From a virus: DNA of 41,701 nucleotides. The notes under the pieces were generated by a model. The model saw only the letters and a program-made list of their open reading frames with translations, was not told where the DNA came from and made no database searches. Of the stretch, positions 22,899 through 36,606 are shown piece by piece. The stretch covers positions 1 through 41,701 of IMG/VR virus record IMGVR_UViG_3300046804_001849. One strand, written 5' to 3'. The stretch's first letter is position 1; each line of letters starts with the position of its first letter. The translations under genes were made by a program, and so were the position numbers.

Positions 22899-23036
22899 TT
22901 ATCTAAAACTCATTTGACTTGAGTGGTCACTTTTACCTAATCCACACCTTTCACAAGATACAAGTTCAGCTTTAGTAAAAGGACATGTTTTAACATTTAT
23001 TTTATGACCGACAATTTTGCACAATATTTTTTTCAC
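22899..23036 (-). CDS. Small Cys-rich protein, DUF1660-like
   Basis: This 45-residue protein starts with GTG and reads MKKILCKIVGHKINV... with the later block CPFTKAELVSCERCGLG. The N-terminal (K)(L/I)LCK..GHK and a distal CxxCG are the pattern of the short prophage proteins grouped as DUF1660; that assignment is from memory of the pattern. Cys/His content suggests a single metal site. The GTG overlaps the upstream oxygenase stop as GTGA, so it is translationally coupled, and a strong terminator follows. Function is unknown. Confidence 0.7.
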   Translation of the reverse strand: MKKILCKIVGHKINVKTCPFTKAELVSCERCGLGKSDHSSQMSFR

Positions 23037-23686
23037 GATAATGGTATCCAATGCTGTTCTGGTATTTCCTTATTGCCAGACAATACTGATAGTGGTATAA
23101 CGTCATATGCTATTGTTATTCGTGGACCATCCCAATCCCAGTCTCCCATAGCATGTGGATGTCCCATTTCTGAAACTACAGCACGATTATCTTTATTAAT
23201 ATTTATTTTACGCTCTCTATTGAATATCATATAGTGAGTTTCTGATGGTTCAGCTTTTACACAATAATATCCGTGGAAAAACGGTGCTCCAGCAGGTCCA
23301 TGGTCATGCCAATCAAGCTTTCCATTCCCAGACTCATTGATGTTGAACCATCCCTGCAACATGTAATTTTGTTCTTTAAAGTCTATGCCATAATAGTCAC
23401 ATGCCTCATGAATCATTGATGAAACTTCATCATATAGTTTTCTGATCTCTGGAACGTGAAATTGGAATACATTGTACTGTTGCCATTTCATTGTTGAAAT
23501 ACTGTTGGATTCTTTCCAAATATCAGTATCTGTTACTGGCGTAACCCCTCTTAAGGTAGCATTTTTAATGCTATCATATCTTTCTTGAAGTTCTACAGAT
23601 AGCTTTTCTAAATCATTATTTAAAAAACGTTCAAAAAATTTATGTGGTTTCGGCAATACGCCAGCAGGATTTTGTTCAATACCCAT
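23033..23686 (-). CDS. 2OG-Fe(II) oxygenase-like protein
   Basis: This 217-residue soluble protein has the double-stranded beta-helix pattern of phage 2-oxoglutarate/Fe(II) oxygenases. GWFNIN lies at 112-117, the metal segment WHDHG at 126-130 (His127, Asp128, His129), HGYYCVKAEPS after it, a distal His (176 or 178, HPHAM), and PRITIAYDV with Arg189 as likely 2OG anchor. Such proteins occur in many phages, often next to structural genes; substrates are mostly unknown. A TATACT promoter about 25 nt upstream and GGAG before ATG begin this unit, which also holds the Cys-rich gene. Neighbours are FTP-repeat and LamG fibre genes, so a virion protein could be the substrate (inference). Confidence 0.75.
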   Translation of the reverse strand: MGIEQNPAGVLPKPHKFFERFLNNDLEKLSVELQERYDSIKNATLRGVTPVTDTDIWKESNSISTMKWQQYNVFQFHVPEIRKLYDEVSSMIHEACDYYGIDFKEQNYMLQGWFNINESGNGKLDWHDHGPAGAPFFHGYYCVKAEPSETHYMIFNRERKININKDNRAVVSEMGHPHAMGDWDWDGPRITIAYDVIPLSVLSGNKEIPEQHWIPLS

Positions 23687-23734: not shown

Positions 23735-25480
23735 CTACTTGTGACAAACTATTCCACTGGCAATAAAGGTATCTGTATCATCTACACTAATCAGATATAC
23801 GTCCTGAGTAGCTATCTCAGTATCAATTGTCAAAATTTCAGTTGAGCGATACCCATTAGAGTCCTTGTCGTACTCCATAAATATATCTCCAACAGAAAGA
23901 TTAGATACCTGCTCCCAAGCAAAATTCTGATCGGCTACCTTGGCTAAAATTGGGTGTGATGGTGTGTAAGATTTCTTTTTATCATTATTAATAAAGATAA
24001 TTTTGTCTGACTGGTTTTTAACAATTTCACGAACTGTTCCATTCTTTACAGAAAGGTTTTCTAGCCATTCATATTCTATTCTTGAATTCTCAATGTCAGC
24101 TTTAGAATCGTAGTTGTCCCAGATAGGTGATACAACAGAATCTCCAACCTTTAGATCTTTAGCTAGTGTTAGTGTTGTTTCACCAGTGTCAGATATAGTT
24201 AAAATTTCAGAATTTTCTCCAACACATACAAATCCAAAGGCAGCTACTGGAGTAAAGCTAAAGTTTCCATATGGAATGAATCCAAATGGTGTAAATGCAA
24301 AGTTTGAATAAACTGGAGTAAATCCAAATGGCACAAAACTAAATGGTGTAAATGCAAATGGTGCAAATGCAAATGGTGTAAATGCAAAGTTTGAATAAAC
24401 TGGAGTAAATCCAAATGGCACAAAACTAAATGGTGTAAATGCAAAGTTTCCATATGGGGCAAAACCAAAAGGAGTGAAACCAAAGGGGGTAAAACCAAAA
24501 GGGGTGAAACCAAAAGGAGTGAATCCAAATGGGGTGAATCCAAATGGGGTGAATCCGAATGGAGTGAATCCAAAAGGGCTGAAGGCAAAGTTTGTAGTTA
24601 CTGAATTTGATGTTCCAGCGGCACTAGTTCCATTGGCATTTGTAGCTGTTACGCTATAGGTTTGAGCAGTACCCATTTCCTGAGCTATAGATGTTGATGT
24701 TGATGCTGTGCTACCAGACTTTCCATCAGATGATGTCCAGTTATAAATTGATATAGCTTTTCCACCATCATTAGGTGCAGACCAGGATAGGTTATCTGTT
24801 CCTGCCGATGGGGAAGATGCTGAAACACCGTATGGTGCACCTGGCACAGTTGTTACTGTTATCATTCCAGAAGTGGTATTTGCTGTACTATCACCATTAG
24901 CGTTTCTAGCAATTACTGAAATATAAACACTTGCATTACTTCCAATTCCACCAACAGTGATTGGAGATGATGCACCAGTATTAGATTGACCGCCAACTCC
25001 TCCTCCGATGGTAGCTACATATGCTGTTATTGATTTGCCACCGTTTGAAGCTGAAGCATTAAAGTTAATTGTAATTGCACCATCATTAAAAGCTCTATTT
25101 GTTCCCACATCTGATGCAGAAATAAAAGTTGGTGATGATGGAACAGTTGTAACTGTTACAGAAGAAGAAGATGAAGAAGATGCTGAAGTTCCTTTATCGT
25201 TGGTCGCAGTAACTGTAAAAGTTGGAGTAGCACCAGTTGCAAATCCAGTTATAACGATTGGTGAAGATGAACCAGTTGCAGTTTTTCCATCAGATGCAGT
25301 TACTGTATATGATGTTGCTGCTGCAGAGCCTGATGGAAGATCAAAAGATACAGATACAGCACCATCATTATAAGCTCTATTAAGTCCAACATCTGTTCCA
25401 ATTACATTTATTGGTGCTGATGGTTGCAAAAAGTCATTCTGCTGAAGTGACTTTTTTCCTGCTCTTTTACTTACTGCCAT
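23735..25480 (-). CDS. FN3 repeats + Phe-rich FTP repeats + C-terminal Hint domain protein
   Basis: This 581-residue protein has four parts. Residues 20-296 hold three fibronectin-III-like modules (SYTVTASDGKTATG, ITAYVATIGGG, YSVTATNANGTSAAG). Residues 297-417 are a hydrophobic repeat, seven near-identical FGFTP pentads and then variants such as FSFVPFGFTPVYSNFAFTP. Residues 419-581 are a Hint (intein/hedgehog) fold: it begins with Cys419 (CVGENSEIL), has the TPSH block (Thr506, His509), and ends VYLISVDDTDTFIASGIV-CHK. The penultimate His580 is present, but the usual terminal Asn is Lys581 and there is no C-terminal extein. This predicts N-S acyl shift and cleavage or transfer at Cys419, not splicing. 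CAGGAG lies 8 nt before ATG. Probably a virion fibre or adhesin. Confidence 0.8.
   Translation of the reverse strand: MAVSKRAGKKSLQQNDFLQPSAPINVIGTDVGLNRAYNDGAVSVSFDLPSGSAAATSYTVTASDGKTATGSSSPIVITGFATGATPTFTVTATNDKGTSASSSSSSSVTVTTVPSSPTFISASDVGTNRAFNDGAITINFNASASNGGKSITAYVATIGGGVGGQSNTGASSPITVGGIGSNASVYISVIARNANGDSTANTTSGMITVTTVPGAPYGVSASSPSAGTDNLSWSAPNDGGKAISIYNWTSSDGKSGSTASTSTSIAQEMGTAQTYSVTATNANGTSAAGTSNSVTTNFAFSPFGFTPFGFTPFGFTPFGFTPFGFTPFGFTPFGFTPFGFAPYGNFAFTPFSFVPFGFTPVYSNFAFTPFAFAPFAFTPFSFVPFGFTPVYSNFAFTPFGFIPYGNFSFTPVAAFGFVCVGENSEILTISDTGETTLTLAKDLKVGDSVVSPIWDNYDSKADIENSRIEYEWLENLSVKNGTVREIVKNQSDKIIFINNDKKKSYTPSHPILAKVADQNFAWEQVSNLSVGDIFMEYDKDSNGYRSTEILTIDTEIATQDVYLISVDDTDTFIASGIVCHK
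24283..24358. repeat. 76-bp perfect direct repeat, copy 1
   Basis: This sequence is identical to 24370-24445 at an 87-bp offset (29 codons, in frame). It encodes the same peptide block around TPVYSNFAFTP. Perfect identity within an otherwise diverged repeat tract suggests a recent in-frame duplication. Confidence 0.85.
24370..24445. repeat. 76-bp perfect direct repeat, copy 2
   Basis: Second copy of the 24283-24358 unit. The intervening 11 bp keep the frame. Confidence 0.85.
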
Positions 25481-25495
25481 TTCATATTCTCCTGA

Positions 25496-27970
25496 TTAAG
25501 CTGTTAGGTCTCCGAAAACAACCCAAGTATCTGTTGCTCTCTTAAATAGTGTAGCAGATGACCACTGTGTGCGTAGCTTAAGTCCTGGTGTGGCATTTAC
25601 AGTTACTCCAGCAGCTCCTGCTATTGTTACCTGTCCTGCTCCAGTTTGAAGAATATCAAATGATGTTCCTACTGGATATGCTACTGATGAATTTAACGGA
25701 ATTGTTAATGTTACGCCAGAGGCTGAGTTTATTTCTACAAGCTTATCACGATCAGTCAAGACTGTTGTGTATGCCCCAGTTTGCTGGTTAATTGTAGTTA
25801 ATGATGGAACACCCTGTTTAGTCTGAGCACCGTCAGAAAACTCTACTCCACCCAATTTTAGTGTGTCGTATGTGACTGATGTAAAATCAACTACGTTTGA
25901 GGTAGGTTCTACACCTCCAGAAATCAACTTCCACTTTCCACTATCAGAGGCATCACGAACTAGTCCAGTGTGGAAGTGACCTGGATTTATATCTCCGTAT
26001 GCACCGTAAATACCGATATCTACTGCGTCAGTATCATATTGTGTTGATGATAGATAAATTAGAGAATCTGTGAGTTCTAGATTTGCTGATGAAACTGTTG
26101 TAGTTGTACCATTGACAACTAGGTTACCAGAAATAGTTAGGTTTTCTGCTGTGGCATTTCCAGTAAGTGCTGGTGCTGCAAGTGGAGCTTTTGCTGCAAG
26201 AGCAGAGTCTAGACCAGAAATCTTTGAAGTGGCAATTGCTGCAGTAGAACTTATATCTCCATTAACAATAGTTCCATCTGCAATCATAGTACTTGTAACA
26301 GTTCCAGTATCAGCTGCTGTGATTGCAGTACCAGAAATCTTTGTTGCAGCAATTGCAGCTGAAGCGTTGATATCTGCGTTAACAATAGTTCCGTCTGCAA
26401 TCATTGTTGATGTCACAGTTCCTGTATCGGCAGCAGTAATTGCAGTACCTGCAATTTTTGTAGCAGCAATGGCAGCAGTTGCTGAAATATCAGCATTAAC
26501 AATAGTTCCATCAAGAATTTTAGCTGAAGTAATTGCACCATCTGCTATATCTCCAGCCACAATGGTTCCATCAGCAATCATAGTAGAGGTCACTGTTCCA
26601 GTATCAGCTTGAGTTACTGCAGTTCCAGAAATCTTAGTTTTTGCAATATCTGCTGTTAAAGATATGTCTCCGTCAACAATTGTTAAATCTGCTATCTTGT
26701 CTGAAGTAATTGATCCAGTAGTTACGGCTCCCGAAAGAACTCCAGATGCCAGCATTGTTGCAGTAACAGTTCCAGTATCTGCTGCTGTGATTGCAGTACC
26801 TGCAATTTTTGTAGGATCAATAGCTGCTGAACCATTAATGTCAGCATTTACTATGGTGCCATTTGCAATCATAGTGCTAGTTACTGTACCAGTATCTGCT
26901 GCTGTAATTGCAGTACCTGCAATTTTTGTAGCAGCGATGGCTGCTGCACTATTAATGTCAGCATTTACGATAGTTCCATCAAGAATTTTAGCTGAAGTTA
27001 TAGCTCCGTCAGCTATGTCTCCAGAAACAATTGTTGCATCCGCAATCTTTGCAGAAGTAATAGTTCCATCAGCGATGTCTCCAGCAACAATAGTTCCATC
27101 TGCAATCTTTGCAGAAGTAATAGCACTATCTGCAACTTTTGCAGAAGTAATTGCTCCGTCAGCTATATTAGTAGATAGAATGGTGACTCCTGCTATTTTT
27201 TCAGAAGTTACTGAGCCATCAGCAATGCTTTGATTTATTACTCCACCAGTTGCAATCTTATCTGATGTTACTGCATCGTCTGCAATTTTAGCAGTAGTCA
27301 CAGAACCATCATAAAGTTTGTCTGTTGTTACGGCATAGTTTGCTATTTTTGCAGTACCTACAGAGCCATCGATAGTTATTCTTTGATTATCTAATCTAGG
27401 ATCAGAAGTCAATACAAGATCTGCAGTATCAAGAATACCGTGGACATTTGTAGTGTCTGCTGAGTGAGTTCCGATTGCTGCAGATGAAGACGCATCTGCA
27501 TATTGCTTTGTTGCCAAGCTTGACATATCTGATATTCCGTGAACATTTGATGTTGCTGTCATGTGGGCTGCAAGTTCAGTGTGAGCAGTTGTTGCTACGT
27601 CAATATCTGCAGAAATTCTAGCATTACTTTCTGTAATAATTTTATCATCAAGATAGTCTGAAGCTGTATTTAAACCAGTTACAATTTCATTTAAAGTATT
27701 TAGGGTATCTGGTGCACCATCAATTAGATTTCCAAGCTGGCTTACTGGAATTTGTCCAGATGAATCAAGTGTTGCAATTCCGTTAGCCTGTCCTAGATTT
27801 AGGTCTGAAGCATCTTTAAAGTATGAAAGGTTTGACCAAGTAGTTGATCCATCACCTATTTTAAATTTTCCAGTGTCTGTCTCAAAACCAATTTCGCCTG
27901 GGGCTAAAACTGTATTTGCTGCTGTCCATTGAGAGGCTGTTCCTCTTCTTTGTTGCATTCTAATTGCCAT
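25496..27970 (-). CDS. Long tail fibre with IADGTI repeats
   Basis: This 824-residue protein starts MAIRMQQRRGTASQW; the start is supported by GGTGGAG 6 nt before ATG. Residues 1-55 are the phage fibre N-terminal module (LAPGEIGFETDTGKFKIGDG) also found in the next gene. Residues of about 195-575 are a long repeat of ITSAKIADGTI / TKIAGTAITAADTGTV units, likely a trimeric beta-helix or beta-roll shaft. Residues of about 600-824 form a distal head including LTDSLIYLSSTQYDTDAVDI and a terminal domain ending TWVVFGDLTA that is shared with the 36614-37246 gene. It probably binds host surface structures. Confidence 0.85.
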   Translation of the reverse strand: MAIRMQQRRGTASQWTAANTVLAPGEIGFETDTGKFKIGDGSTTWSNLSYFKDASDLNLGQANGIATLDSSGQIPVSQLGNLIDGAPDTLNTLNEIVTGLNTASDYLDDKIITESNARISADIDVATTAHTELAAHMTATSNVHGISDMSSLATKQYADASSSAAIGTHSADTTNVHGILDTADLVLTSDPRLDNQRITIDGSVGTAKIANYAVTTDKLYDGSVTTAKIADDAVTSDKIATGGVINQSIADGSVTSEKIAGVTILSTNIADGAITSAKVADSAITSAKIADGTIVAGDIADGTITSAKIADATIVSGDIADGAITSAKILDGTIVNADINSAAAIAATKIAGTAITAADTGTVTSTMIANGTIVNADINGSAAIDPTKIAGTAITAADTGTVTATMLASGVLSGAVTTGSITSDKIADLTIVDGDISLTADIAKTKISGTAVTQADTGTVTSTMIADGTIVAGDIADGAITSAKILDGTIVNADISATAAIAATKIAGTAITAADTGTVTSTMIADGTIVNADINASAAIAATKISGTAITAADTGTVTSTMIADGTIVNGDISSTAAIATSKISGLDSALAAKAPLAAPALTGNATAENLTISGNLVVNGTTTTVSSANLELTDSLIYLSSTQYDTDAVDIGIYGAYGDINPGHFHTGLVRDASDSGKWKLISGGVEPTSNVVDFTSVTYDTLKLGGVEFSDGAQTKQGVPSLTTINQQTGAYTTVLTDRDKLVEINSASGVTLTIPLNSSVAYPVGTSFDILQTGAGQVTIAGAAGVTVNATPGLKLRTQWSSATLFKRATDTWVVFGDLTA
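26246..27388 (-). repeat. Degenerate coding repeat of fibre shaft
   Basis: Repeated units encode variants of IADGAITSAKI and AATKIAGTAITAADTGTV in the 824-residue fibre. Several copies are close to identical at DNA level, so unequal recombination could change shaft length. Confidence 0.8.
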
Positions 27971-27971
27971 A

Positions 27972-28721
27972 TTATGCTCCACCGCCGTCTAGGGTTATAT
28001 CTAAACCATGATTTATTGAGTATACAACTGCGTCTACGGCACGTTGATCTGTGAAATATTTATTAGTTCCCTCTTCAATATCTGAAGTAGTTAAAGCATT
28101 TATTGCTGAAGATATTGCAGAATCTGAGTGAGAGTTAGCTGAAGATATTGCCTGTGATTTAGCAGTTGCAATTTCTGAAGTAATTGTTGTATGAAGAGCT
28201 GTATCTGCAGAAGTAGCAAAAGACTCTGCATCTGTTTTAGCTGAAGCAACTGTAGATGCTACAGTAACTGCAAAGTTTGGATCATCTCCGATGGCATCTG
28301 CAAGTTCTTTCAAGGTGTCTAGTGTACTAGGTGCAGCATTTACAAGATTAGTAATTGCAGAATCTGTATATCCTTCTGCTGCTGTGATTGCCTCTGATTT
28401 GGCGGTAGCAATTTCTGAAGTAATAGTAGTGTGAAGTGTTGAATCTGCATTAGTTGCAAAAGTTTCTGCAGTTGAAATTGCCTGAGATTTTGCAGTATTT
28501 ATCGCAGAATTTCTATTAGTAACTTCTGTAGAAATTTCTCCATCGATATATGATGTAAGATCTTCAACAAAATACTCTAAGTTTAGCCATGTGCTGGTTC
28601 CATTTCCAATTTTAAACTTTCCAGTGTCCGATTCAAAACCGATTTCACCACTTGCAAGTATTGGATTAATATCTGTCCACTCAGCTGCTGGACTTCTACG
28701 CTGTAACATTCTAGTTGCCAT
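27972..28721 (-). CDS. Tail fibre paralogue, short
   Basis: This 249-residue protein starts MATRMLQRRSPAAEW. Its first 55 residues are a clear paralogue of the N-terminus of the next fibre (GEIGFESDTGKFKIGNG). The middle is an Ala/Ser/Thr-rich alpha-helical coiled coil (ITSEIATAKSEAITAAEGYT, repeated), and the end carries LTTSDIEEGTNKYFTDQRA, a module also found in the 464-residue fibre. AAGGAG lies 10 nt before ATG, with a TGGTATAAT promoter in a 45-nt leader. It is probably an alternative or co-assembling fibre subunit. Confidence 0.8.
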   Translation of the reverse strand: MATRMLQRRSPAAEWTDINPILASGEIGFESDTGKFKIGNGTSTWLNLEYFVEDLTSYIDGEISTEVTNRNSAINTAKSQAISTAETFATNADSTLHTTITSEIATAKSEAITAAEGYTDSAITNLVNAAPSTLDTLKELADAIGDDPNFAVTVASTVASAKTDAESFATSADTALHTTITSEIATAKSQAISSANSHSDSAISSAINALTTSDIEEGTNKYFTDQRAVDAVVYSINHGLDITLDGGGA

Positions 28722-32198: not shown

Positions 32199-33161
32199 TT
32201 AATTGTTTACTTGGCTATCTACCCATTTATATGTTTTTTCTAATCCTGAATACAAAGTTTCATTTGGCTTCCATCCCAGCTTTTCTTGAATTAAACTGTT
32301 GTGTGAGTTTCTTCCAGCTACGCCTCTAGGACCATGAACGTATTTCTTAGTTAATTTTTTTCCAGATATTTTGATAACCATATCAGTTAGTTGATCTATG
32401 CTAACCATTTCCTCTGATCCTAAGTTTACTGGACCTGAAAAATCTGAATTCATTAATTTTTCTATTCCAGTCAGGCACTCGTCTATGAACAGGAACGATC
32501 TTGTTTGTGTGCCATCTCCCCAGACTTCTACGGTACCGCCGTCCTGCTGTTCTGCAACCTTTCTACAGATAGCAGCTGGAGCTTTTTCTTTTCCACCAGT
32601 CCAGGTTCCAAGTGGTCCAAAAATATTGTGGAATCTTGCTATTTTTACATCGATATCATGCTCTCGTCCAAATGCAAGATATAATCTTTCACTGAAAAGC
32701 TTTTCCCATCCATACTCTGTGTCTGGATCAGCTGGGTATGCAGATGATTCTTCACAATGTGGGCTATTTGGATCTAATTGATTTCTTTCAGGATAAATGC
32801 ATGCTGATGAAGAATAGAATATTTTTTTAACATTGTTAGCTACACATGCCTGCAAAACATTAGCATTGATTAATACTGATGTTGACATTACCGAAGAGTC
32901 ATTTCCATGAGCAATATATCCGATTCCACCCATGTCTGCTGCCAGCTGATAAACTTCATCATAGCTGTTATGCAAAAATATTTCATCAATCATTGACTGT
33001 CTTGACAAATCTCCTACAAAAAATTTTGAAGCTGCTGATACTGAAAACATTGGAAGTTTAATATCTGCTCCGACTACATTATTTCCTTCGGCAACAAGTT
33101 TTTCTACTAGGTGATTTCCAATAAAGCCACCTGCTCCTAATACCAATATATTCTTCATCAT
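32199..33161 (-). CDS. GDP-mannose 3,5-epimerase-like SDR enzyme
   Basis: This 320-residue extended short-chain dehydrogenase/reductase has the NAD-binding GAGGFIG at 9-15, YGWEK with Tyr150/Lys154 as YxxxK, and SSSACIYP containing Cys121. The blocks LAADMGGIGYI, RFHNIFGPLGTW, GGKEKAPAAICRK (Lys193), VWGDGTQTRSFLFIDEC and HGPRGVAGRNSHN match plant-type GDP-mannose 3,5-epimerase almost word for word. Cys121 and Lys193 correspond to the acid/base pair known in the Arabidopsis enzyme. The product of that enzyme is GDP-L-galactose (and GDP-L-gulose). A fucose synthase or UDP-sugar epimerase is less likely given these motifs. It follows a GT11-like gene by 3 nt. The tandem ATGs sit after an AGGA site, so either may be used. 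Confidence 0.85.
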   Translation of the reverse strand: MMKNILVLGAGGFIGNHLVEKLVAEGNNVVGADIKLPMFSVSAASKFFVGDLSRQSMIDEIFLHNSYDEVYQLAADMGGIGYIAHGNDSSVMSTSVLINANVLQACVANNVKKIFYSSSACIYPERNQLDPNSPHCEESSAYPADPDTEYGWEKLFSERLYLAFGREHDIDVKIARFHNIFGPLGTWTGGKEKAPAAICRKVAEQQDGGTVEVWGDGTQTRSFLFIDECLTGIEKLMNSDFSGPVNLGSEEMVSIDQLTDMVIKISGKKLTKKYVHGPRGVAGRNSHNSLIQEKLGWKPNETLYSGLEKTYKWVDSQVNN

Positions 33162-33164
33162 ATC

Positions 33165-34169
33165 CTATCTAATAATTATATACTTTGGTTCATCATGATA
33201 ATACATCCAGTGATTTTCATTTCCTTCTGTAAAATCAACATCAATTTCTATTTCGCCGTCTACTCCGTAAATCAATCTTTTATCAACTACTGGACTGTAT
33301 ACTTTTGCGGTTGGTGAAAGAAAACATGCCCACCAGCTAAAGCTGCTGTTTGCACGGAAAACTGTTCTAGCAAAATAGATTTTTAAAAAATCTTCTAGCC
33401 AATCAAACATTTTACCTGGTCTATATTCTGATCCAACTGGATATGTCCAACCATATCTTTCCTCATTTTTTCTACCATAGTGCCACTTACCTATGTAGTC
33501 GTCAGAAATCCATTCTATTTTTTCTGGATCATATCCATATTTAAAAAATGCATTGTAATAAGATAACTGAGATATTACAGAATAACCCTGGTGATTATTT
33601 TGATTATATATCGGATTTGAAATGTCATCTCTTCTAAGGTGAGCTACATCATATGTTCCAGCTATTGAAGACCAGTATTTGTAGGCATCTGTATTTTTAA
33701 CTTCATCTGAAAGTTCAAAAACTTCTTTTAAGAACTCTTTACTCATTTTTGTGTAAATGTTTTGATGATATGCACACACACTGTCAAAATACATTGTGCC
33801 AAATCTGTTTAGATCATATCCAGTTTTTGACTCTGGCAGAACTCTTTCGGCACCTGGAAAAATTTTTGAAATTTCTTCCTTATGTCTTTCATCTGTATGA
33901 AAATCATCATGTGACTGATTTAGCATTAATCTTAAATTATCATCTTTCAATATTGTATGAAATTGATTTTTAAATAATTTAGTTCCCTCCCAATCAGATG
34001 GCAAAATAAAATTGGCGTTATTTATTTTTGCATATGTGACACCATAGGCGTATTGATGCATTCTGTTTCCGAATCTACCATTCCAATGTGCCAGGATTAG
34101 ATTGTGTTCTATATCGCTAGTATAATTGTTTCCTAGCACCATACTAGTTTTTAAATTATCTGATAGCAT
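33165..34169 (-). CDS. GT11-like fucosyltransferase (alpha-1,2 type family)
   Basis: This 334-residue protein has the GT11 signature set: GRFGNRMHQYAYG near residues 31-43 (family GxGNQxFQYA), HLRRDDI at 177-183 (the HxRRxD donor-site motif), and FRANSSFSWWACFLS at 271-285 (family S.STFSWWAA). No signal or transmembrane segment is present, so it is cytoplasmic. GT11 enzymes transfer L-fucose from GDP-L-fucose. The adjacent epimerase instead points to GDP-L-galactose, whose sugar is the 6-hydroxy analogue of L-fucose. The ATG is 1 nt from the upstream stop. The acceptor is unknown and may be a virion glycan or host surface glycan. Confidence 0.78.
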   Translation of the reverse strand: MLSDNLKTSMVLGNNYTSDIEHNLILAHWNGRFGNRMHQYAYGVTYAKINNANFILPSDWEGTKLFKNQFHTILKDDNLRLMLNQSHDDFHTDERHKEEISKIFPGAERVLPESKTGYDLNRFGTMYFDSVCAYHQNIYTKMSKEFLKEVFELSDEVKNTDAYKYWSSIAGTYDVAHLRRDDISNPIYNQNNHQGYSVISQLSYYNAFFKYGYDPEKIEWISDDYIGKWHYGRKNEERYGWTYPVGSEYRPGKMFDWLEDFLKIYFARTVFRANSSFSWWACFLSPTAKVYSPVVDKRLIYGVDGEIEIDVDFTEGNENHWMYYHDEPKYIIIR

Positions 34170-34170
34170 T

Positions 34171-34761
34171 TTATTTTATCCAACTTAGCACTTCGTATTT
34201 GCTACCTTCGGTTACTTCTATTATTGAAGAATTGTAGACATATGTTGATGGAAATATCAGCATTTCGTTAGCACCTATTTTATAAGATAAATTAAAATTT
34301 GGGAAATATACTTCTCCACCTGAATAATTATCATTAAATCCAAATATAGTTGAGATTCTTCTGTGAAAAGTTGGATGATCATCTATATGGTTGGAAAACA
34401 TTTGACCTTTTTCATACTTTACAATTTCAAAATTATAGTGTTCTGAAAATAGTATTCCATATGTTTGCATGTAGTCTTGTTCTACTGGTGCAAAGAAAAA
34501 TCTAAAAACTTCAGATATTTCGTTAATAAAAAAGTCTGCTGGACTTGCTATATCGGCAATACCCATAAATGGTATTCCAATTGTACTGCAATCTCTAAGT
34601 TTTGAATCTACAGCATCACTGTCTAGCGATCTAACTTCTGCTTTTGCCCATGCAAGTGTGCCGAGTGTTACTGCTGACTCTATTTCATCTATAAAATCTA
34701 GATCTAGGTCAATAACATTTTTATAAACAACAATTCCTGGTGCTAACTCTTGCTTTTCCAC
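34171..34761 (-). CDS. Prolyl 4-hydroxylase-like 2OG/Fe(II) protein, atypical active site
   Basis: This 196-residue protein starts with GTG (MEKQELAPGIVVYKNVIDLD) one base after the previous gene. The P4H-type fold is clear: FEIVKYEKGQMFSNHIDDHP with the metal pair His125-x-Asp127, then RRISTIFGFNDNYSGGEVYF, and the distal block IFPSTYVYNSSIIEV followed by TEGSKYEVLSW. In typical members the distal block reads FPS..YPHEV.PVT.G.RY. Here the third iron ligand is Ser178 and the 2OG-anchoring Arg is Lys188. It may be inactive, or use a different chemistry. It lies between a Thr/Pro-rich fibre unit and the glycosyltransferase. Confidence 0.7.
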   Translation of the reverse strand: MEKQELAPGIVVYKNVIDLDLDFIDEIESAVTLGTLAWAKAEVRSLDSDAVDSKLRDCSTIGIPFMGIADIASPADFFINEISEVFRFFFAPVEQDYMQTYGILFSEHYNFEIVKYEKGQMFSNHIDDHPTFHRRISTIFGFNDNYSGGEVYFPNFNLSYKIGANEMLIFPSTYVYNSSIIEVTEGSKYEVLSWIK

Positions 34762-35040: not shown

Positions 35041-36606
35041 TTAAAGTGGTCCTCTAGATGTTGGGGTAAAGCTAAATGGAGTAAAGCTAAATGGTGCTAC
35101 TGGAGTAAAACTAAATGATACAAAGTTAAAGGCAGATACTGGGGTAAAACTAAAGTTTCCATAAGGTATAAAGCTAAATGCAGCTACTGGAGTAAATCCA
35201 AATGGAACAAAGCTGAAAGGTGTAAAGCTAAAGTTTGTATATGGAGTAAAGCTAAATGGCGTAAATCCAAATGGAGTGAAGCCAAATGCAGACACAAAGT
35301 TAAAGGCTGGGGTGCTACTTGTAGTAGTGGTTGTTGTGGTAGTAGTGCTAGTAGTTGGCGGAGCTTCGTAGCATGAAATTGCAGCTCCAGTACATGTGTC
35401 ATAGTATTCTAATGAACTTGCACAACTACTGGTTGTTCTAATTGCTCCTGATACTGGGGTACAGGTTGCTGATGTTGTTGTAGTTGTTGGTGTTACAGAA
35501 ACACAGCTTCCACCATTCCAATAGTATCCACATGACCAGCATTCGCCCTGGGTTAGTCCACTAGGTGATGGTGGACAAGTATTTGTGGTACTTGTTGTAG
35601 TTGTTGGTGTTGTAGTTGTTGGTGTTGTTGGGGTTGGTGGAACACACCCCAAACTTGCACCAGTGCAATCATTGTAGTATTCAAAGAATGATGGGCAGTC
35701 AAAGAAGTTCGGTCTATAGGCACCTGATGTTGGAACACATGTAGTGGTTGTAGTAGTTGGTGCTGTAGCACGGCAATAGCCACCATCCCAGTAATATCCA
35801 CATCCCCAACACACTCCTTCTGATAGCCCTGTTGGACTTGATGGACATGTGCTTGTAGTGGTAGTTGATGTAGTTGTACTAGTAGTCGTTGGTGGTGCCG
35901 ATAGACATGATATAAATAGGGTATCTACTAAATTACCGCACTCGTCGTACCAGTTTGTAACTTTGGCACCATAAGTACATCCAAACTGCCCTGGAGTATA
36001 ATCATTAAATTGGTTAGATGTTACATATGACTCAGAGCAGAAGTTAGTTGCCGTAAAACTTGTTGTTGGAGTTGAGCTTGTTGTTGATGTTGTAGTCGGT
36101 GTAGGAGTTGGTGTAGGAGTTGGAGTGTATGTTGCACAATTAATTGTTGGTGATGTATTTGATGACGAACCACAGTTCCATCCTGCTGGATTTCCATATT
36201 GTGACTTTAGGGTGAGACATGTTGATGTAACATCTTGTCCACTCTGAACAGCTGATGTCCCACTTGTTGATAGGTTTGCTCCTGAACAAAATGCAAAATA
36301 TGCATAAGTTGTTGTACTTCCACCACCAGTACTTGTTGGCGATGTTGTTGTAGGCGTATATTGAATATAATTATAATAATTAAAAGAAACACTTGTTTCA
36401 TAATCTACTAGGGTGTTATGGCTAGGATACTGAGATAGTGTTTGCTCATGAAGAACATTATCATATGTATTAGTATAGTTTTCATCTTGGATCTTAAGAC
36501 CTGAAGCTAAAATTGCAGCACGAGCTTGTGTTCTAGTTAATCCAACTAGATTAGGAACCTTAACCATTCCTTTTGAAGAAGCTATGTGTGCTGACGATCT
36601 TAGCAT
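35041..36606 (-). CDS. PASTA + Thr/Pro-rich + Cys-module + FTP-repeat fibre protein
   Basis: This 521-residue protein has, at about residues 14-82, a PASTA-like module (VKVPNLVGLTRTQARAAILA), known elsewhere for cell-wall peptidoglycan or beta-lactam binding. From about 85 to 430 runs of Thr/Ser/Pro (TPTPTPTPTPTTTS, TTSTTTTTTTTTS) separate Cys-rich modules: two copies of CW(G/S)CGYYW(D/N)GG(Y/S)C and three or more of a C...EYY(N/D).CTGA..(G/S)C type. Residues 435-516 are Phe-rich FTP repeats like those of the Hint protein, and it ends TSRGPL. AGGA lies 5 nt before ATG. It lacks a signal peptide, so is presumably a virion component made in the cytoplasm. Thr-rich linkers are plausible O-glycosylation sites (inference). 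Confidence 0.75.
   Translation of the reverse strand: MLRSSAHIASSKGMVKVPNLVGLTRTQARAAILASGLKIQDENYTNTYDNVLHEQTLSQYPSHNTLVDYETSVSFNYYNYIQYTPTTTSPTSTGGGSTTTYAYFAFCSGANLSTSGTSAVQSGQDVTSTCLTLKSQYGNPAGWNCGSSSNTSPTINCATYTPTPTPTPTPTTTSTTSSTPTTSFTATNFCSESYVTSNQFNDYTPGQFGCTYGAKVTNWYDECGNLVDTLFISCLSAPPTTTSTTTSTTTTSTCPSSPTGLSEGVCWGCGYYWDGGYCRATAPTTTTTTCVPTSGAYRPNFFDCPSFFEYYNDCTGASLGCVPPTPTTPTTTTPTTTTSTTNTCPPSPSGLTQGECWSCGYYWNGGSCVSVTPTTTTTSATCTPVSGAIRTTSSCASSLEYYDTCTGAAISCYEAPPTTSTTTTTTTTTSSTPAFNFVSAFGFTPFGFTPFSFTPYTNFSFTPFSFVPFGFTPVAAFSFIPYGNFSFTPVSAFNFVSFSFTPVAPFSFTPFSFTPTSRGPL
35059..35304 (-). repeat. FxFTP-encoding repeat, second copy in genome
   Basis: Encodes residues 435-516 (blocks such as FGFTPFGFTPFSFTP, NFSFTPFSFVPFGFTPVAAF). 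It is less regular than 24230-24592 but composed of the same pentads and the same NFSFTPV.AF junctions, which suggests exchange or common origin. Confidence 0.8.

Follow-up and report, generated by a model that had tools for sequence, protein, structure and literature searches.

The window analysed here, a stretch of 41,701 nucleotides representing positions 1 to 41,701 of the IMG/VR virus record IMGVR_UViG_3300046804_001849, comes from a tailed phage with genes for a portal, a protease, a major capsid-like protein and a tape-measure protein. Its head protease is nearest to those of Streptomyces phages (about 41% identity), which makes an actinobacterial host likely. A sequence-only reading of this DNA had described one gene as coding for FN3 domains, a phenylalanine-rich repeat and a C-terminal Hint domain which is not followed by a C-extein. 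This layout was borne out by the sequence and by a structural model, and the residues which had been singled out, i.e., Cys419, the TPSH motif, the penultimate histidine, the lysine in place of asparagine and the stop codon, are all found as described in the open reading frame (Table 1).

Table 1. Features of the Hint protein gene and of related or adjoining genes in the window. Residue numbers are those of the 581 amino acids protein.
Feature	Position	Strand	Remarks
Open reading frame, 581 amino acids	23735..25480	-	short basic leader, three FN3-like domains, FxFxP segment, C-terminal Hint domain
Three FN3-like beta-sandwiches, residues 24-296	24593..25411	-	Pfam fn3, model and structural matches
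(F-x-F-x-P)n segment, residues 298-415	24236..24589	-	predicted disordered
Hint (hedgehog/intein) domain, residues 419-581	23738..24226	-	
Cys419	24224..24226	-	first Hint residue, block A nucleophile
T506-P-S-H509	23954..23965	-	block B TxxH
H580-K581	23738..23743	-	penultimate His retained, Lys instead of terminal Asn, then stop
Second FxFxP protein of the phage	35041..36606	-	N-terminal PASTA-like domain, ends FTPTSRGPL, no Hint domain
Upstream gene, tail-fibre protein	25496..27982	-	Mtd_N domain
Downstream gene, 217 amino acids protein	23033..23686	-	invariant H..H...H...R; putative, oxygenase-like spacing

The FN3-like domains match Pfam fn3 with an E-value of 2e-4, which is under the curated cut-off; they are also seen in the full-length model, and the structural matches of this region are FN3 proteins and phage minor tail proteins. 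With these sandwiches the protein has the feature by which phage-tail FN3 proteins are recognized. The following segment of 118 residues contains 20 FxFxP units and consists of 35% phenylalanine and 17% proline without a single charged residue. Within its coding region (24279-24445 of the window) two stretches of 80 nucleotides, 87 nucleotides apart, are 98.75% identical and, judged by this identity, are a recent internal duplication.

Hint domains are known in inteins, hedgehog proteins, and bacterial toxins and adhesins. The isolated Hint domain of the window yielded an E-value of 5e-8 with the Pfam family Intein_splicing, its 33.3 bits being slightly under the curated cut-off of 35.8, and a profile of its relatives built with the window sequence left out matched it with an E-value of 4e-24 (for a million sequences). 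The predicted structure of the domain had a pLDDT of 89.6 and a pTM of 0.84. When this model was compared with the PDB by Foldseek, the top 50 matches listed were all Hint-fold entries. They include mini-inteins, the BIL domain of C. thermocellum, hedgehog (1at0, E-value 4e-6 in the fold search, 12% identity in the structural alignment) and, as the best match, BIL2 of the BUBL1 locus of T. thermophila. The profile of the Cys1 group of relatives described below likewise matched the C. thermocellum BIL structure 2lwy (E-value 5e-6). The comparison of residues 419-581 with intein, BIL and hedgehog domains proposed in the sequence-only reading thus gave matches to all three kinds, and its Hint assignment agrees with Pfam, the leave-window-out profile, the model and Foldseek. 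That a fibre protein matches the motifs by chance and has no Hint domain at all might be argued from the Pfam score and from a single-sequence phmmer search against the PDB, which gave nothing significant. This has next to no probability, as profile, model and fold searches are concordant and the Foldseek list of Hint-fold entries only contradicts it. The Hint fold is well supported by sequence and model, and with the predicted fold and a nucleophile, Cys419, at position 1 the domain is assigned to the Hint superfamily, being neither an intein nor a hedgehog protein.

An intein would carry a C-terminal asparagine, glutamine or aspartate, a C-extein with cysteine, serine or threonine at position +1, and exteins on both sides. 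The window protein ends with H580-K581 and a stop codon, and nothing follows its Hint domain. As both the C-extein and the asparagine are absent, splicing is impossible for this protein. With inteins it has the fold in common, and the block A of its relatives (CIHEDTLI.TP.G) resembles the Cys1 motifs of L206 and L207, which are in a Rubritepida metagenome-assembled genome and a Rhodococcus contig; in contrast to inteins, it has no endonuclease.

To see the domain in its family context, viral contigs were scanned for (FxFxP)3, which yielded at least 118 loci, most of them with a Hint-like C-terminus after the repeats. A second scan was seeded with the Hint C-terminus and not with the repeats. 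In nearly all of its matches (an exception is, e.g., L197) aromatic and proline-rich repeats of the types FxFxP, FFPP, HFPP, FFAPP or VPP were found just before the Hint domain, located between it and an N-terminal part which can be FN3, PASTA or other. A second protein scan for relatives resembling the window protein recovered only the same genome. In all, 79 domains of less than 85% identity, including the window domain and three jumbo-phage domains, were aligned after removal of near-copies and one cut-short row. Within-class identity had a median near 34%. Position 1 was cysteine in 51 rows, serine in 28 and never anything else. The tree requires a single cysteine-serine change, the Cys1 and Ser1 domains forming two clades and not repeated switches. 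Within the Cys1 group the branch of the window domain is very long (2.39), its best identity being 28%. The protein is a divergent representative of a large family which has apparently not been described before. Isolated phage records gave no matches when searched directly with the Hint domain of the window, with a Cys1 relative of the FN3 kind or with an FD-ending Ser1 relative, and plasmids gave none either; a genome collection yielded only two short matches, resembling intein Cys1 motifs in unrelated proteins. The literature searched contained no account of FxFxP-Hint proteins.

The two groups differ in their active site residues. In the Cys1 group only three alignment columns are fully invariant, Cys419 being one of them, and its domains nearly always end with His-Asn plus 1-10 further residues. 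The penultimate histidine is present in 51 of 51 Cys1 rows, a count partly biased since one scan had this histidine in its motif; in the repeat-seeded set it is present in 19 of 19. The residue preceding Cys1 is not conserved. The block B histidine is replaced by glutamine or glutamate in 35 of the 51 Cys1 rows and is retained in the window. Ser1 domains have it in 28 of 28 rows and end in aspartate in 26 of 28; in some of them (L005, L008, L025, L033) the chain runs on past the aspartate into a conserved stretch of about 40 residues, the first of which is often serine. The sequence-only reading had made its prediction dependent on homologues keeping Cys419 and TxxH. The window domain keeps both; among the relatives cysteine gives way to serine, still a nucleophile, in 28 of 79, and the block B histidine is lost in the majority of Cys1 rows.

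The missing asparagine, noted in that reading, is true for the window and is exceptional in the Cys1 group. The residue aligned to Lys581 is asparagine in 49 of 51 Cys1 rows, the exceptions being the window with lysine and L024 with threonine, which supports Lys581 as a real departure from the family. The window gene ends with CAC AAG TAG and that of the relative L083 with CAC AAT AAG TAG, so the change looks like an in-frame deletion of a single codon. Only one further copy was found (L004); its contig is 100% identical and belongs to the same genome, and the lysine variant therefore rests on one genotype. As the tree needs only one cysteine-serine change, the association of cysteine with asparagine is weak evidence of coupling between the two.

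Another finding was that the repeats also occur without a Hint domain. Eighteen distinct relatives, including the PASTA-FxFxP protein of the window phage, have their C-terminus at most a few dozen residues after the repeats, which indicates that a protein ending in repeats is a viable final form. Two places after the gene of this second protein lies a 2OG-Fe(II) oxygenase gene (34171-34761), and sugar epimerase-like and glycosyltransferase family 11-like genes (32199-34169) are located within the tail-fibre module. In other genomes two FxFxP-Hint proteins are encoded on one contig (L070, L039, L069, L025, L032 and contig 3300032268_000887 with L041 and L044); the two Hint domains of L070 are closely related to each other, which suggests from their sequences that the domain was copied within one genome. 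Free-standing Hint-like genes are found directly downstream of PASTA-FxFxP-Hint genes (L024:2275-2772, L044:8688-9338, L058:7039-7656, L064, L071, L118, L141). Most of them have no Cys1; the copy in L024 has the cysteine and adjoins a Hint domain ending with HTK.

Tail-fibre-type genes are found upstream in 49 of 54 loci of relatives. Downstream, the family of the 217 amino acids protein occurs in 17 of 56 loci. Within three genes, 2OG-Fe(II) oxygenase or Asp/Asn hydroxylase genes occur in 26 of 56 and DUF6065 in 25 of 56, both counted in family loci alone. These counts support a tail-fibre module and not a specific partner, and a location of the Hint protein in the virion is inferred from gene order. 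Hydroxylation by the product of the adjoining gene is unsupported, as a profile search with its family gave no significant match despite the invariant histidines and arginine.

With Cys1 and TxxH present and both the asparagine and the C-extein absent, an acyl shift at Cys419 would be expected, resolved by water or another nucleophile. Such a course of reaction is established for hedgehog and BIL domains, and according to reviews cleavage is the main activity of BIL domains which lack a +1 nucleophile, the B-type being able to cleave at the N-terminal side (PMC7664689, PMC7765530). The window domain shares with BIL domains the Hint fold and the absence of a +1 nucleophile. Cys1, TxxH and the lack of asparagine are B-type features, but the penultimate histidine is kept and the nearest relatives end in His-Asn, by which most Cys1 members resemble the A-type. 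Different from BIL domains, the present ones are the last domain of phage tail-region proteins, right behind phenylalanine- and proline-rich repeats, and the family also has a separate Ser1 group ending in aspartate.

The reading we favour, to which we give an even chance of being correct on the basis of sequence, model and analogy, is a tail-region precursor with a self-removing Hint domain. The Hint domain would fold and attack the Val418-Cys419 bond to yield a thioester, which water would hydrolyse to release the domain. The product would be an FN3 protein ending in the hydrophobic FxFxP tail, like the natural Hint-less relatives, and the Hint domain, as a C-terminal cap which can be removed, would keep the sticky tail in solution up to assembly. 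In the absence of asparagine the C-terminal reaction would be closed to the window member, which would act like a B-type BIL domain or the first step of hedgehog. The proposed role would be comparable to that of the Peptidase S74 chaperone, a self-removing C-terminal domain of other tail fibres and low-complexity fibre proteins (PMC7824862), the catalytic residues of which, serine and lysine, are unrelated to Hint. Cleavage is supported by position 1, which is cysteine or serine in all 79 rows despite the low within-class identity, by the Hint fold, by the repeats preceding it, by the Hint-less relatives and by the tail-fibre neighbourhood. Together this suggests self-trimming of these proteins during the building of virus particles.

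The long branch and the loss of a near-invariant residue mean that the window domain could be decaying. The Hint domain might then no longer cut and be retained for its folded state, capping the hydrophobic tail in aid of solubility or assembly. The block B histidine missing in many Cys1 relatives and the free-standing Hint-like genes, most without Cys1, after some family members would fit this, but an invariable cysteine or serine at position 1 is unexpected without chemistry, and the window retains its cysteine and TxxH; we regard loss of cutting as unlikely, though worth keeping in mind. The loss of the block B histidine also indicates that N-side chemistry is maybe not selected in those Cys1 rows, and the invariant His580 together with the near-invariant asparagine points to C-side chemistry. 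Asparagine cyclisation could accordingly be the main reaction of the wider family, lost in the window, with N-side cleavage being secondary. As most members would thereby shed only 1-10 residues, usually a single lysine, and as the Ser1 members have no asparagine at all, we consider this very improbable.

Instead of water, another molecule might attack the thioester or ester through its amine or hydroxyl, so that the FxFxP tail becomes covalently attached to it, as in hedgehog; this molecule could be a glycan or lipid, a protein of the virion or a second FxFxP protein. Hedgehog Hint domains have TxxH and lack the terminal asparagine, a combination also seen in the window in addition to Cys1 and the C-terminal position; the fold is common to both (1at0), and the best structural match is the BUBL1 BIL domain. 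The two FxFxP proteins encoded on several contigs would also be in line with acyl transfer. Against it, the protein ends with the Hint domain and has no sterol-recognition or acceptor domain after it, the residue before Cys1 is variable and no partner was identified, which leaves transfer rather unlikely. We further think it a quite doubtful proposition that in many environmental phages the Hint domain activates the C-terminus of a phenylalanine- and proline-rich adhesion tail for covalent joining at assembly or host contact, Cys1/His-Asn and Ser1/Asp being two chemical solutions. Hydrolytic removal of the Hint domain remains our preferred reading.

Proteins of similar build exist in other phages. 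Jumbo phages of Erwinia and Yersinia have collagen-like/Ig virion proteins (PHROG 38766), annotated as virion structural protein or as tail fiber protein, with a C-terminal Hint domain which likewise has Cys1, TxxH and the E/D-P-x-D motif and which has a short tail after HN. They are distantly alike and differ by collagen-like instead of FxFxP repeats and by keeping the asparagine. In the structural libraries, unstudied proteins of uncultured phages share the layout of the window protein; the best full-length and domain matches were the FN3/PASTA proteins A0A6J5NYB8, A0A6J5MFV5 and A0A6J5NY54 (UniProt) of uncultured Caudovirales, predicted proteins for which the searched papers contain no description of function.

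Judged by their sequences, many environmental phages carry Hint domains behind very phenylalanine-rich tails. If such domains are widespread at the ends of phage tail-region proteins behind phenylalanine- and proline-rich repeats, this would be a distinct use of Hint in virion maturation. As one family contains two natural active sites, Cys1 with His-Asn and Ser1 with the block B histidine and aspartate, how the N-side and C-side residues divide their tasks would be testable within it.
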